Shown here one piece after another: positions 27,837 through 64,000 of a stretch of DNA of 64,000 bases. The stretch is from the NCBI RefSeq assembly GCF_014639315.1, contig NZ_BMFY01000007.1, positions 124,001-188,000 of the forward strand. The letters are read 5' to 3'. Within the stretch, counting starts at the first letter, position 1; each line of letters begins with the position of its first letter. This DNA comes from Sediminivirga luteola. Lineage in GTDB: Bacteria; Actinomycetota; Actinomycetes; Actinomycetales; Brevibacteriaceae. The notes below the pieces were generated by a model, which was given only the letters and a program-made list of their open reading frames with translations, had not been told where the DNA came from and made no database searches. The translations under genes were made by a program, and so were the position numbers.

Positions 27837-27870
27837 TTGAGATTGTGCTCAGGTTGAGATTGTCCTCAGG
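27837..27870. repeat. Tandem 17-mer in the gap before the binding-protein gene
   Basis: TTGAGATTGTGCTCAGG (27837-27853) is followed immediately by TTGAGATTGTCCTCAGG (27854-27870), one mismatch apart. The second copy includes the stop codon of the beta-lactamase-like gene at 27866-27868. The first lies just upstream of the ribosome site of the binding-protein gene, so the duplication lengthens the spacer between two coupled genes. Confidence 0.7.
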
Positions 27871-31007: not shown

Positions 31008-33001
31008 GCCGCGCACCCGTCCTCGACGACCTCACCCGGATCGTCGATCCCCAGACCCCGGCGCTGTTCCCCGGGGGCTCGGCGCTCGTCTACGCCGCCG
31101 TCCACCACCCGGCAGAGGGCCCGGCCGTGTCCGAGCTGCGCGTGCTGAGCCTCCCGGCGTCCGAGCTCGCGGACGCGGCCCAGGAAGGTACGGAGCGCGG
31201 GCCGGAGCAGGCACGCACCCTCACCTCCGGCGACCTCGACTCGAACCCCGCAGTCTCCCCCGACGGCTCTACCGTGGTGTTCACCCGCAAGGCTGAGGGC
31301 AGGCCCGCCCTGTTCTCCATCCCCGCCGAGGGCGGGGAGCCGGTGGCACTCACCTCCGGGCTCACGGTTGCCGGGATGCCGGTGTTCTCCCCGGACGGCG
31401 AGCACATCGCCTTCACCGCGCTGGCCGACGACAGCGCCGCGGATCCCACGCCTCCCCTGGTGATCGACGGCGAGCCCGCGCACAAGGTCGACGGCCTCGG
31501 CTGGGTGGGCACCGCCCGCCTGCAGGTGTTCGTGATGCCCGCCGCGGGCGGCGAGGCCGTGCGGCTGACCGAGTCCGGCAACTGCACCGCCCCCGCCTGG
31601 TCTCCGGACGGCACCACTCTTGCCTTCGCGCACACGGATCACGATGAGCAGGGGGTGCCCTTCACCCGCAGGGTGGGACTGGTGGATCTCGCCGCACCCG
31701 GTACCTCCGTGCGCTTCCCCTTCTCCCAGACCGGCATGTTCTCCCAGACAGGCATGGGCGGGCCCCTGCTGTGGTCCCCGGACGGCGCCTGGCTGGTGGC
31801 GATCGGGGAGGCCCGCACCCCGGTGGGGATCAACCGGCTGCTGCGGCTGGACCCGGACAGCGGCGATATCACCCCGCTCACCGCCGGGCTCGACCGCAAT
31901 GTGATGGGCGGCGGGCCCGGCTACCCCGGCGGCGCGCCGGCCTGGGGTGCGGACGGACGGATCTGGTTCTGCGTGCGCGAGGGCGGCCAGACCGCGCTGC
32001 GCTCCCTGGATCCCGCCGCGGAGTCCGGTGACATCCGCAGCCATGAGCTGGGCGATGGCGCTGTGATCAGTGGTCTGTCCATGGCCGGCGGCACCGCCGT
32101 GGTGCGGCTCTCGGATCCGGACCTGCAAGGCGAGATCTTCTCTCTCGACACCGCCAGCGGCGCTGTCACCCAGCTCACCCGGCACTGGGAGGAGGAGCTT
32201 CCCGAGGTGTCTTTCCTGTCGGCACGCCCGGTGAGTTTCACGATCTCCGACGGCACCCGGGTGCACGGCTGGCTGCTGCGCGACCCCGCCACCCAGGGCC
32301 CCGCACCCACGCTGCTCGACATCCACGGCGGGCCGCACAACGCCTGGACGGGAGTGGCCGACGCCGCCCACCTGTATCAGCAGGTGCTGGCGGCCCGCGG
32401 CTGGAATGTGCTCACCCTCAATCCCCGCGCCTCCGACGGCTACGGCGAGGAGTTCTTCACCGCGGCGGTGGGAGCCTGGGGCGAGGCCGATGAGCAGGAC
32501 TTCCTCGAGCCCCTCGACACCCTGGCGGACCAGGGGCTGGTGGATCCGCAGAGGGTGGCGGTGACCGGCTACAGCTACGGCGGTTTCATGACCTGCTGGC
32601 TCAGCAGCCGCCACCCGGAGCGCTTCGCGGCGGCCGTGCCCGGAGGCCTGGTCTCCGAGCTCCACACCCTCGCGGCCTCCAGCGATCTGGGGCGTTACCT
32701 GCGCGATATCGAGACCGGCGCGGGCAATGCCGAACGCCTGTCGCCGGCCAGCTACGTGGACGCGGTCACCGCCCCCACCCTGGTGCTCCACGGCCAGGAG
32801 GATCAACGCTGCCCGCTGGCCCAGGGCGAGCTCTGGTACTCACGTCTGCAGGAGAACGGCGTGCCCTCGCGCATGGTCGTCTACCCCGGGGGCTCTCATC
32901 TGTTCATTCTCAACGGCCCGGTCTCTCACCGGGTCGATTACAACCAGCGGATCATCGACTGGGTGGTGGAGCACACACAGGCTTCGAGCCTCAAAGACTA
33001 G
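31004..33001 (+). CDS. S9-family prolyl-oligopeptidase-type serine peptidase
   Basis: Protein of 665 residues. A beta-propeller of WD/TolB-like blades spans about 20-400 (SPDGSTVVFTR, SPDGEHIAFTA, SPDGTTLAFAH, SPDGAWLVAIG). The alpha/beta-hydrolase catalytic domain follows, with S524 in GYSYGG, D600 in HGQEDQR and H632 in GGSHLF. No signal peptide, so it cuts imported peptides in the cytosol. Start is the GTG that overlaps the racemase stop; much longer upstream frames are shadow. The 3' end overlaps the convergent ATPase gene by 11 bases. It would supply dipeptides or amino acids, including D-residues, to the rest of the pathway. Confidence 0.9.
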   Translation: MSRAPVLDDLTRIVDPQTPALFPGGSALVYAAVHHPAEGPAVSELRVLSLPASELADAAQEGTERGPEQARTLTSGDLDSNPAVSPDGSTVVFTRKAEGRPALFSIPAEGGEPVALTSGLTVAGMPVFSPDGEHIAFTALADDSAADPTPPLVIDGEPAHKVDGLGWVGTARLQVFVMPAAGGEAVRLTESGNCTAPAWSPDGTTLAFAHTDHDEQGVPFTRRVGLVDLAAPGTSVRFPFSQTGMFSQTGMGGPLLWSPDGAWLVAIGEARTPVGINRLLRLDPDSGDITPLTAGLDRNVMGGGPGYPGGAPAWGADGRIWFCVREGGQTALRSLDPAAESGDIRSHELGDGAVISGLSMAGGTAVVRLSDPDLQGEIFSLDTASGAVTQLTRHWEEELPEVSFLSARPVSFTISDGTRVHGWLLRDPATQGPAPTLLDIHGGPHNAWTGVADAAHLYQQVLAARGWNVLTLNPRASDGYGEEFFTAAVGAWGEADEQDFLEPLDTLADQGLVDPQRVAVTGYSYGGFMTCWLSSRHPERFAAAVPGGLVSELHTLAASSDLGRYLRDIETGAGNAERLSPASYVDAVTAPTLVLHGQEDQRCPLAQGELWYSRLQENGVPSRMVVYPGGSHLFILNGPVSHRVDYNQRIIDWVVEHTQASSLKD

Positions 33002-40159: not shown

Positions 40160-40542
40160 AAGAACGTTTCGCGGAATTCTTCGCGCGTTCACTAGAATCC
40201 CGCCGAAAATTATTTACCCGTAAAGACTCTCTCAACCCCGTGCGGGCGCGTTGGTGAGCGGCAGCGGATGCGCACGGGAACGATCAGAAGGATATCCGCC
40301 CAGGTCACCTGCGCCATCGAGGCGAAGATGCCATAGGAGACAGGGCTCCTCATCCGGACGCCTTCACCTGCCCCGGTGAGACCGCACGCGGATTCAGGCG
40401 CCGGTCAGTTTTCCCGGTTTTCCTGAGAATTCCCTTGACCGGAGAATCGCCCGGGCAATAGCCTTCGAATAGTCGGCGGACACCAGTGCCCACCGGCTCC
40501 ACCGGCTATCCACTGCTTGACCTTTGAGAGGACACCGTTCGC

Positions 40543-41114
40543 ATGAGCACGCCTGAAACCACTCCCACGCGCCGCCCTCGCGCTCGCACCGCCCTCGCGC
40601 TCGCACCGTCCTCGCGGCGGCGGGCGTCGTCGGCCTGGCCACCGCCCTGACCCTGACCACCGCCCAGTGGCAGGACGACGCGACAATCTCCGGTGACGTC
40701 ACCACCGGTACCTTTGAAATCACGGTCGATCCGAGCGACCTCGGCTTCGACGATGACTTCGGTCCCGGCGACACCCAGAGCGGCACCTACACCCTGTTGA
40801 ACGAGTCCAGCGTCGACGCCTACATCACCCTCGACATCTCCGGCTTCACCGCTACCGATGTCTGGGACCTCGAGGTGACCGCCGATGGCGAGCCTGTCTT
40901 CGAGGGCGACCCCGCCGGCGCCGGCACGACCGACCTCGCTCTCAGCACCGACTCCGTGTTCGGCCCCAACGAGTCCGCAAGCATCGGCATCTCGCTGACC
41001 CTGGTGGACCCGGAGACGGGCAGCGCACCCGAGGGCGTCACCGACACGGCGACCTTCACCTTCAACGGCACCAGCGAGATCCCCACGGACGACGGCCCGG
41101 GCCCCGTCGAGTAA
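40543..41114 (+). pseudogene. SipW-dependent (alternate signal) secreted protein, frameshifted by a 17-bp duplication
   Basis: The ATG at 40543 follows a GAGAGGA ribosome site and encodes MSTPETTPTRRPRART, but the frame then derails. CCCTCGCGCTCGCACCG occurs twice in tandem (40575-40591 and 40592-40608). Removing one copy restores MSTPETTPTRRPRART-VLAAAGVVGLATALTLTTAQ-WQDDATISGDVTTGTFEITV and an open frame to the stop at 41114. The restored protein has about 184 residues, a TasA/camelysin-like alternate signal and an acidic, immunoglobulin-like body. As written, no ATG, GTG or TTG exists in the second frame before 40797. Lies directly upstream of a SipW-type signal peptidase. Confidence 0.85.
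40575..40608. repeat. Exact 17-bp tandem duplication inside a signal-peptide region
   Basis: Two adjacent copies of CCCTCGCGCTCGCACCG. Seventeen is not a multiple of three, so gain or loss of one copy switches the downstream coding sequence in or out of frame. Such direct repeats can expand or contract by strand slippage during replication. Confidence 0.9.
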
Positions 41115-41241
41115 CGAACACGCCCGGGAGGGCCGGCGCCGCCTCGGCAGCGGCGTCGGCCCTCCCCGGGCCCGCCGGGCCGCATAAGCGCCCGGCGGCC
41201 GCTGACGGCCCGATGGGTATCCACCTTGCAGTGACCGGGAG

Positions 41242-41820
41242 ATGATGACCACGCCTGAGCACACCACCGCGTCCGGCACGCGGCGCCGTCCGCAGCGCCG
41301 GCGTTCTGCGCTCGGCACGGCGTGGTCGGTGCTGGTGACCGTGGTCGCGGTGGTGACGATCGGCCTCACGATCGCCGCCTACACCGGGCTGCTGGGCGTC
41401 CGCGCCATCACGTCCAGCTCGATGCAGCCCACGCTGAACGCCGGCGATATGATCATCAGCCGCACGGTCCCCGCAGCCGAAGCCCAGATCGGCGATATCG
41501 CCACGCTGCAGCATCCGGACGGTCATGTGGTGACACACCGCGTGCTCGCCAATGAGCCCGATCCGGAAGGCCCGGAAGGCACCGGCCGGCTCATCACGAT
41601 GCAGGGCGACGACAACGACGTCGCCGATCCGAGACCCTATCCCGCGACGGAGGTCGATGTGATGCTCATCCGGGTTCCCTACCTGGGCGGGGTCTTCCGG
41701 GCGGTGTCACAGCCGCCGGTCAGTTACATCGCCCTCGGATCGCTCGCCCTGCTCCTGGCCTCCGGGTTCATGCCGGCCCGCCGGCGCAGCACCGAAGCGC
41801 AGGAGCGTCCCACCTCATGA
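41242..41820 (+). CDS. SipW-type (ER-type) signal peptidase I
   Basis: Protein of 192 residues. An N-terminal membrane anchor lies at about 28-50. Nucleophile S60 is in ITSSSMQPTL, and the general base is H99 in HVVTHRV rather than the usual lysine, which marks the ER/SipW type. A C-terminal helix at about 160-178 follows. SipW-type enzymes cut the alternate signals of TasA-like proteins, and the preceding gene encodes exactly such a substrate. Two adjacent ATGs make the exact start uncertain by one codon. The stop overlaps the LPXTG-protein start (ATGA). Confidence 0.92.
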   Translation: MMTTPEHTTASGTRRRPQRRRSALGTAWSVLVTVVAVVTIGLTIAAYTGLLGVRAITSSSMQPTLNAGDMIISRTVPAAEAQIGDIATLQHPDGHVVTHRVLANEPDPEGPEGTGRLITMQGDDNDVADPRPYPATEVDVMLIRVPYLGGVFRAVSQPPVSYIALGSLALLLASGFMPARRRSTEAQERPTS

Positions 41821-42704
41821 GACACCTCACGGAGCGCTCCCCCTCCGCACTCTCCACCAGTCCGCCCCGGAGCGGGGATGTGCACCGGCCGGACAGCAGC
41901 CCGCAGAGCCGGGCCAGCGGCATGTACATGCGCCGCGTCAGCAGCCTGCTGCGACGGCACGGTTCCGATGCCGCCAGGTCCGGTGCGCCCGGTACCGGCG
42001 GCGCGCGCCGGAACGGCACGCCGCGACTCGTCGGCGTCGGCCTGGCCGCCGGAGTGCTCAGCGCGTTCCTCCTGGCCGGCGCTCCCGCCCTCGCCGTCAC
42101 CACGCCGCCTGGGCTGGAGGTCACGTACCCGGACGGCCCCGTCCGCCTGGAGACCCTCGCGCCTGGCGGCACCGTGCGCGGCTACGCGAACGTCCAGAAC
42201 ACGCGGCCCGATGAGGCCGCCATCGAGCTGAGCAGCGACTGGCCCGGCGCCGCCGCGGCTGACGGGCTGATCACCCTCCGCGCCCACGTGTGCACGCAGG
42301 CCTGGCAGGCCGGCGAGTGCGCCCCGGGCGCCTGGGAGGTCCCGCTGGACACGGCTCCCGCGCCGGCCGGCACGCTCGGCGCGGGGCAGAGCTGGTTCCT
42401 GCAGCTCACCGCGCAGCTGGACGCCGCGGCACCGAACGACACCCAGGACCTGCGGCTTCCCTTCACCGTCACGGTGCACGCCTCCGGCGATGGCGACGGC
42501 CCGCCCGGGGAACCTCCGGACGGCAGCGAACCGCCACCACCCGGAGGCGAGCCGCCTGCGCCGCCCGAGGCCTCGCCGCCCGGGGATCCGTTGCCGCGAA
42601 CCGGCCTCGGGGTGTTCTCCCTGCTGGTGGCGGCCGCGGCGCTCATTGCCGGCGGCACCGCCCTCCTCGCCCGGATACGGCACGACGGCAGGCCCCGCTC
42701 GTAA
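41817..42704 (+). CDS. LPXTG-anchored surface protein
   Basis: Protein of 295 residues. A long hydrophilic leader of about 65 residues precedes a signal-type helix (LVGVGLAAGVLSAFLLAGA then PALAV). A beta-rich domain of about 120 residues follows (LEVTYPDGPVRLETLAPGG, later AGQSWFLQLTAQLDAA), then a proline/glycine-rich wall-spanning stretch. The sorting signal is LPRTG, a hydrophobic helix and RIRHDGRPRS. It would be linked to peptidoglycan by a sortase, not encoded here. The leader suggests that a start further in may be used. It is co-translated with the signal peptidase, so the locus makes a small surface structure. Confidence 0.85.
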   Translation: MRHLTERSPSALSTSPPRSGDVHRPDSSPQSRASGMYMRRVSSLLRRHGSDAARSGAPGTGGARRNGTPRLVGVGLAAGVLSAFLLAGAPALAVTTPPGLEVTYPDGPVRLETLAPGGTVRGYANVQNTRPDEAAIELSSDWPGAAAADGLITLRAHVCTQAWQAGECAPGAWEVPLDTAPAPAGTLGAGQSWFLQLTAQLDAAAPNDTQDLRLPFTVTVHASGDGDGPPGEPPDGSEPPPPGGEPPAPPEASPPGDPLPRTGLGVFSLLVAAAALIAGGTALLARIRHDGRPRS

Positions 42705-62190: not shown

Positions 62191-64000
62191 GCGCGCAGCC
62201 GCCTCTGCGCCGGTTCCAGCCCGCCGCCGCGGGCCGGCCGGGCACCATCGACGCCGGCCCCCTCAGGCTGCGCCCCCTTCGTCTGCGCTGCCTCGGGCTG
62301 TGTCCCCTTCGTCTGCGCGGCCACCCATCGCGCCAGGCGGCTGTCCGGGTCGCGGAGCAGCTCGGCGGGGGCGCCGTCCTCCTCGATGCGGCCGTGTTCC
62401 AGCCACAGCACCCGGTCCAGGCCCTGAATGGTGCCCAGGTCGTGGGTGATGGCCAGCGTCGTCCGTCCCCGGGTCAGCTCCCGCAGCGACTCCTCCACGG
62501 TGGCGCGCGAGGCAGGGTCGAGGCCGGCGGTCGCCTCGTCCAGGATCACGATGGGCGCGTTGCGGACCAGCGCGCGGGCGATCGCGACGCGCTGCCGCTG
62601 CCCGCCGGAGAGGGTGTCGCCGCGGTTCCCCAGGACGGTGTCGTACCCCTCCGGCAGGGCCGTGATGAAGTCGTGGGCGCCCGCACGGCGGGCGGCGTAC
62701 TCGACTTCGGCGTCGGAGGCTCCCAGCCGGCCGTAGCGGATGTTCTCCCGCACCGTGGTGGTGAACAGCACCGACTCCTGGAGCAGGATGGACACGTGCC
62801 GGCGCAGGCTGGCTCTGGTGACCCTCCGGGTGTCGTAGCCGTCGATGAGCACGCTGCCGGCATCGGCGTCGGCCAGGCGGAGCAGATAGCCGGCCAGGGT
62901 GGATTTGCCGGCGCCGGAGGGACCCAGCAGTCCCACCCGCTGGCCCGCCGGGATATGCAGGCTGAGGTCCTCGAACAGCACCCGGCCGTGCCCGTCGCGG
63001 GCGGTGATCCGGTCGAAGGCGACGTCCCCGTCCACATTGCCCATCCGCAGCGCCGGCTTGGGATCGGCGATCTCGACCGGTTCCTCCATCAGGTCCGCGA
63101 TGCGCTCTCCCGAGGCGGCTGCGCGAGCGATCCGGCCGGTGTACTTGGCCATATCGCGCAGCGGCTTCATGGCGATCTTGAGGTACATCAGGAAGAGCAC
63201 CATATCGCCGGGCGTCATCCGGCCGCGCAGCACCTGCCAGCCGCCGAAGCCCAGGACGACGGCCGTGGCCACCCCGACCAGCAGATCGGTGGAGCGCTCG
63301 AGTCCGGCGGCCAGGCGCCGCGCGCGGATACCGGCTTTGAGGGCACGCTCGTTGCCGTCCGCGAAGTCGTGCGCGACGGTCTTCTCCAGGCCGTAGGCCT
63401 GCACCACCCGGATCGCCCCGAGCGCCTCGGCGGCGGATCCGACCAGCTTGCCCTCGCCCTTGCGGGTAGCCCGGGACGCATGCGTGATCTTCGGCGTCGC
63501 GAAGCGCGAGAGCACGAAGTACGCGCCGGCCGTGGCCACCACGATCAGGCTCAGGACCGGGTCCAGGATCATGATGACGACCAGCAGCACGGCGAGCGTC
63601 AGGACGTTGCCGACCAGCGGCAAACCGGCGGTCACGGCGACTTCCTGGAGCCGGCCGATGTCCCCCACCAGCCGCTGCGAGGTGTCGCCGACGGAGGCCC
63701 GGGAGTGATAGCGCAGTGAGAGCGCCTGGACGTGGTCGAACACGCGTGAGCGCAGCTGCGTCGCGACCCGGGAGCCGACCAGGGCGAAGGCGATCGTGCT
63801 GGCGTAGTTGCACACCGCCCGGCCGCCGACGATGAGGGCCAGCAGCAGCGCCCACGTCACCAGGGTGAGGCCGACATCGCCGCCCAGGCCCGTCGTCTCG
63901 GACAGCCGGGCGCCGAGCGCCTGGGTCACGGCGTCCACAGCGTACTTGACCGGCCAGGGCTCCAGCACGCGGAAGATCACATCGCCGGCCAGGGCGAGCA
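62187..64000 (-). CDS. ABC exporter, fused membrane and ATPase domains (partial, 5' end outside window)
   Basis: About 604 residues are visible; the frame stays open to the window edge (LALAGDVIFRVLEPWPVKY), so the true start lies beyond 64000. The type I exporter transmembrane domain runs to about residue 310 of the visible part, with SRVATQLRSRVFDHVQALSLRYHSRASVGD and TRKGEGKLVGSAAEALGAIRVVQAYGLE. The ATPase has Walker A GPSGAGKST, signature LSGGQRQRVAIARA and Walker B IVILDEATAGLDPASRATVE. It ends in a low-complexity tail with repeated QTKGTQPEAA-like units. First visible gene of the operon with two APH-fold kinases. Confidence 0.9.
   Translation of the reverse strand, partial: LALAGDVIFRVLEPWPVKYAVDAVTQALGARLSETTGLGGDVGLTLVTWALLLALIVGGRAVCNYASTIAFALVGSRVATQLRSRVFDHVQALSLRYHSRASVGDTSQRLVGDIGRLQEVAVTAGLPLVGNVLTLAVLLVVIMILDPVLSLIVVATAGAYFVLSRFATPKITHASRATRKGEGKLVGSAAEALGAIRVVQAYGLEKTVAHDFADGNERALKAGIRARRLAAGLERSTDLLVGVATAVVLGFGGWQVLRGRMTPGDMVLFLMYLKIAMKPLRDMAKYTGRIARAAASGERIADLMEEPVEIADPKPALRMGNVDGDVAFDRITARDGHGRVLFEDLSLHIPAGQRVGLLGPSGAGKSTLAGYLLRLADADAGSVLIDGYDTRRVTRASLRRHVSILLQESVLFTTTVRENIRYGRLGASDAEVEYAARRAGAHDFITALPEGYDTVLGNRGDTLSGGQRQRVAIARALVRNAPIVILDEATAGLDPASRATVEESLRELTRGRTTLAITHDLGTIQGLDRVLWLEHGRIEEDGAPAELLRDPDSRLARWVAAQTKGTQPEAAQTKGAQPEGAGVDGARPARGGGLEPAQRRLRA

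Follow-up and report, generated by a model that had tools for sequence, protein, structure and literature searches.

Tandem repeats in the promoters of dop, lpdA and cysG of Mycobacterium tuberculosis have been argued to mediate phase variation through changes in copy number, such promoter repeats varying at 10^-2 to 10^-3 per chromosome (PMC12817950). The number of copies of these 54-58 bp promoter repeats differs from strain to strain and also within one culture, and a change in copy number could alter expression, with effects that include biofilm formation (PMC12817950). The locus described here likewise belongs to an actinobacterium, but here the repeated unit measures 17 bp, falls within coding sequence, is present in two copies and is known from one allele. 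A second precedent is found in fission yeast, where microhomology-mediated tandem duplications reversibly inactivate genes, as described for ssp1 (reviewed in PMC13207564). As in ssp1, the break comes from a short duplication between short homologies and can revert, although reversion was observed in the yeast and is deduced as possible in our bacterium.

The gene that is broken finds its closest counterparts in the TasA/camelysin-SipW systems of Bacillus (B. subtilis tasA-sipW; B. cereus camelysin-sipW, PMC4292775), in which, as here, a small secreted protein adjoins an endoplasmic reticulum (ER)-type signal peptidase. The Bacillus cargo proteins carry a SipW-type signal. The product of the broken gene is not matched by the signal model TIGR04088, and it differs in matching the camelysin family PF12389 near the cut-off and over its first half only. 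The present cluster also differs in the addition of an LPRTG protein, and its cargo is not known to form fibres or to act in biofilms.

A 17-bp duplication in the signal-peptide coding part

The window, i.e. the whole stretch of 64,000 nucleotides of Sediminivirga luteola DNA that was analysed, contains an exact tandem pair of the 17-bp unit CCCTCGCGCTCGCACCG at 40575-40591 and 40592-40608, as revealed by sequence comparison (plus strand, as are all features of this locus given below). The initial annotation had reported two exact copies in the signal-peptide coding part of a secreted-protein gene, and both the coordinates and the description proved right. An assembly-wide search detected no further occurrence of CCCTCGCGCTCGCACCG outside this pair. 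The exact run at an offset of 17 extends over 37 bp (40572-40608), providing 20 bp of homology for deletion, and when the window was simulated 40 times with a first-order Markov model the longest exact tandem was 22 bp, which shows the repeat to be a real duplication. Tandem Repeats Finder (TRF) scored 2.9 copies at 40568-40616, the count including the imperfect third unit next to the exact pair. TRF and comparison of the units resolved an array of 17-bp period at 40568-40618, consisting of imperfect unit A (CGCGCCGCCCTCGCGCT), a hybrid unit (CGCACCGCCCTCGCGCT) and imperfect unit B (CGCACCGTCCTCGCGGC). Units A and B are identical at 13 of 17 positions, and the hybrid middle unit has a B-like start (CGCACCG) and an A-like end (CCCTCGCGCT). 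The repeat covers approximately codons 11-22, and the length of the unit, which is not a multiple of three, alters the frame in this 5' coding part. The leader immediately upstream of the broken gene carries another exact tandem, the 9-bp CCACCGGCT in two copies (40490-40507).

Translation of the two-copy sequence from ATG 40543, which is preceded by a Shine-Dalgarno-like GAGAGG motif, gave a shortened reading frame of 35 amino acids (40543-40650) terminating at TGA 40648-40650. The rest of the gene is a start-less open frame at 40557-41114, as evidenced by its translation, the PF12389 match and third-position GC, which is 0.91 for the broken gene. This frame is open from its end at 41114 back to TGA 40554, and in 40557-41111 it contains no ATG, GTG or TTG before TTG 40797, approximately codon 80 of the full protein. 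Reading the gene with a single copy gave a fully open frame of 184 amino acids, in which a short N-region rich in arginine precedes a hydrophobic stretch (VLAAAGVVGLATALTLTTAQWQDD) and then an acidic domain. The earlier claims that one copy leaves the gene open, that two copies shift it out of frame and that the first half lacks an alternative start were thus all confirmed. The one-copy form is one that we infer, the one known allele being two-copy.

Identity of the product and its neighbours

The exported part of the one-copy product matches PF12389 (camelysin, Peptidase_M73) with 23.5 bits against a curated cut-off of 22.5 (E=5.6e-5), the match being limited to residues 5-92 of that part. 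TIGR04088, the model of SipW-cognate signal peptides, gave no match to the product of the broken gene at E values up to 10 and matched several paralogs of the same genome over its cut-off; the claim made here is therefore that the product is camelysin-like and adjoins SipW, and not that it is a proven SipW substrate. An AlphaFold2 model of the cargo from its single sequence was mostly beta with a mean pLDDT of 54.9, too poor to use, and a PDB fold search with this model gave no significant match. The proposed identity as a secreted protein was upheld by the match of the one-copy product just over the PF12389 cut-off and by the adjoining SipW/ER-type peptidase gene, and the gene at 40543-41114 is best explained, as judged from its sequence, as the former gene of a small surface or matrix protein of the camelysin/TasA-like type, exported through SipW.

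Downstream lies an intact gene for a SipW/ER-type signal peptidase I at 41242-41820, which scored 60.9 bits with TIGR02228 (cut-off 51.85), matched PF10502 and scored with the SipW model below that model's cut-off. Ser60 and His99 of this enzyme are invariant across four paralogs of this genome and would be the expected catalytic pair of an ER-type signal peptidase. It is followed at 41817-42704 by an intact gene for an LPRTG (sortase-motif) surface protein, recognised by its open reading frame and motif, the ATG of which overlaps the sipW stop by 4 bases. The LPRTG protein has a conventional-looking signal peptide and matched no Pfam or NCBIfam family; the genome encodes two sortases. Both partner genes are whole, as had been annotated, and genes for a cargo, SipW and an LPXTG protein together make up the cluster at 40543-42704. 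Strong GC-rich hairpins without a U-run are predicted at 41124-41200, in the interval that separates the broken gene from sipW (minimum free energy z -3.8 versus shuffles); they may represent a GC-rich terminator or an RNA-processing site. A scan for consensus promoters and terminators found none. RNA left untranslated past 40650 might lower the expression of sipW and of the LPRTG gene through Rho, the hairpins lying in between.

Cargo genes elsewhere in the genome and in relatives

Three other SipW clusters in this genome contain five complete cargo genes, all of which are open. The cluster on contig 5 has a similar layout with two open cargo genes; the contig 19 cluster has two open cargo genes and SipW, with a relic cargo ahead of them; and contig 30 carries one open cargo gene and SipW as well as another cargo cut at the contig end. 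No comparable repeat and no start-less frame was present in any of the complete paralogs. The contig 19 relic (L050:1119-1322) stops soon after a SipW-type signal (TIGR04088, E 1.9e-7), contains no tandem repeat and has immediately behind it a paralog whose signal region is very similar. It appears to be another cargo gene, broken independently of the first, and its breakage without a tandem repeat indicates that cargo genes do decay in this genome. In another SipW cluster (L014 1359-2570), the cargo combines a SipW-type N-terminus with leucine-rich repeats resembling HupY/LrrG adhesins.

Of 396 genomes in the order, 45 contain PF12389 genes. In each of the 30 PF12389 relatives fetched from the order, an in-frame start lies ahead of the domain, and an exact tandem repeat with a unit of 10 bp or more upstream of the domain was found in none of them (0/30); for one of the 30 (L099) the position of the match was estimated, as a contig end cuts its flank. 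The window gene, scored identically, has no start. The genus is represented by one genome, that of the source itself; searches of the family and order for orthologs returned distant matches alone (27-41% identity), and two GTDB contig scans for orthologs found nothing.

Tandem duplications as genomic background

Exact tandem duplications with a unit of 10 bp or more were counted in sampled stretches amounting to 464 kb of the source's own genome, giving 18 duplications or approximately 3.9 per 100 kb, so that one duplication in the window is not unusual. Two relatives gave 2 in 200 kb (G003, 1.0 per 100 kb) and 7 in 200 kb (G059, 3.5 per 100 kb). When genes were placed with a crude GC3-based gene caller, all gene-interior duplications of the 464-kb sample had units that are multiples of three, save that at 40575-40608; the other duplications that are not multiples of three are intergenic or at gene edges, leaving 40575-40608 as the sole gene-breaking one in this sample, and it is this damage to a gene that is unusual. 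Selection against frame-breaking duplications, which the broken gene escaped, would explain this pattern. Less exact repeats also occur in the window, including near-exact tandem pairs of the 17-bp TTGAGATTGTCCTCAGG (27837-27870, 94%) and the 18-bp TTCTCCCAGACAGGCATG (31721-31756, 94%), and a tandem of 30-bp period with 2.1 copies at 87% (62257-62322). An intergenic 30-bp unit at L058 8093-8157 forms an exact repeat with a run of 65 bp, a possible operator pair.

Origin of the lesion and alternative explanations

It is likely that a revertible slippage frameshift, an ordinary loss of function in a partly redundant gene and not an evolved phase switch, accounts for these observations. Slippage during replication between the neighbouring imperfect near-repeats A and B of a one-copy ancestor would have added the extra unit; the expected product of such slippage is a unit with a B-like start and an A-like end, given that A and B agree at most of their positions. 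The extra 17 bp would then have shifted the frame and so silenced the gene in the isolate that was sequenced. A recent lesion is probable, because what remains of the frame is open and its codon composition is normal. Now that the repeats are exact, deletion back to one copy would be possible in principle, and the homology available at an offset of 17 suggests that this reversion should be easier than the original duplication. Exact 17-bp tandem repeats delete at measurable rates in bacteria, so that one-copy cells may be present in a culture. Slippage as the cause, the recency of the lesion, the redundancy of the gene and the absence of selection for switching are all points that we infer.

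A different reading is that the true genome is one-copy with an intact gene and the second copy an artefact of assembly or sequencing, which we consider unlikely. The draft state of the assembly (45 contigs), the high GC content of the region and the lack of decay in the remainder of the gene would all fit an artefact. On the other hand, a 37-bp repeat is shorter than an ordinary short read and should be resolved, and the site lies well inside contig 7, at 164.6 kb of at least 188 kb. Moreover, an error of assembly at a repeat should lose copies by collapse and not gain them, as argued for M. tuberculosis (PMC12817950).

The initial annotation had gone further in suggesting that gain or loss of one copy could act as a phase switch. 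If this were bona fide phase variation, slippage of 17 bp would turn the surface protein's export ON in one-copy cells and OFF in two-copy cells, giving mixed populations. A unit whose length is indivisible by three, close to the 5' end of a gene for a surface protein, would fit this reading, that being the usual place of contingency repeats, and the exact run with its homology would favour deletion. Switching by tandem-repeat copy number is also documented in another actinobacterium, in promoters (PMC12817950). Nevertheless, the phase-switch reading found no positive support and appears quite improbable, as there are two copies only, a comparable repeat is absent from all the relatives and complete paralogs examined, and tandem duplications belong to the common mutational background of this genome. 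Relatives usually share a contingency locus or vary at it. It is more doubtful still that the two-copy coding repeat is a real ON/OFF switch of a SipW-exported matrix protein that was selected for mixed populations.

Continued expression of the two-copy allele through ribosomal frameshifting or reinitiation is very improbable: a -1 shift anywhere in 40557-40650 would join both frames and the stop TGA overlaps CTG 40647 of the other frame (CTGA), but a start at CTG 40647 would yield a product without most of the signal peptide and one at TTG 40797 a product without any of it. Programmed frameshifting was ruled out, as the overlap of the two frames contains neither an XXXYYYZ slippery heptamer nor a homopolymer of 4 or more. 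Given the loss of the signal peptide from these starts and the absence of a slippery site, the exported product should not arise from the two-copy allele.

Annotation pipelines will see this gene as a start-less fragment at 40557-41114, which calls for caution. Should both alleles coexist, the locus would be a simple actinobacterial case of a biofilm-type protein switched by a coding repeat. As an ordinary loss of function, the reading that we prefer, it would illustrate clearly how a duplication made by slippage can break a gene.
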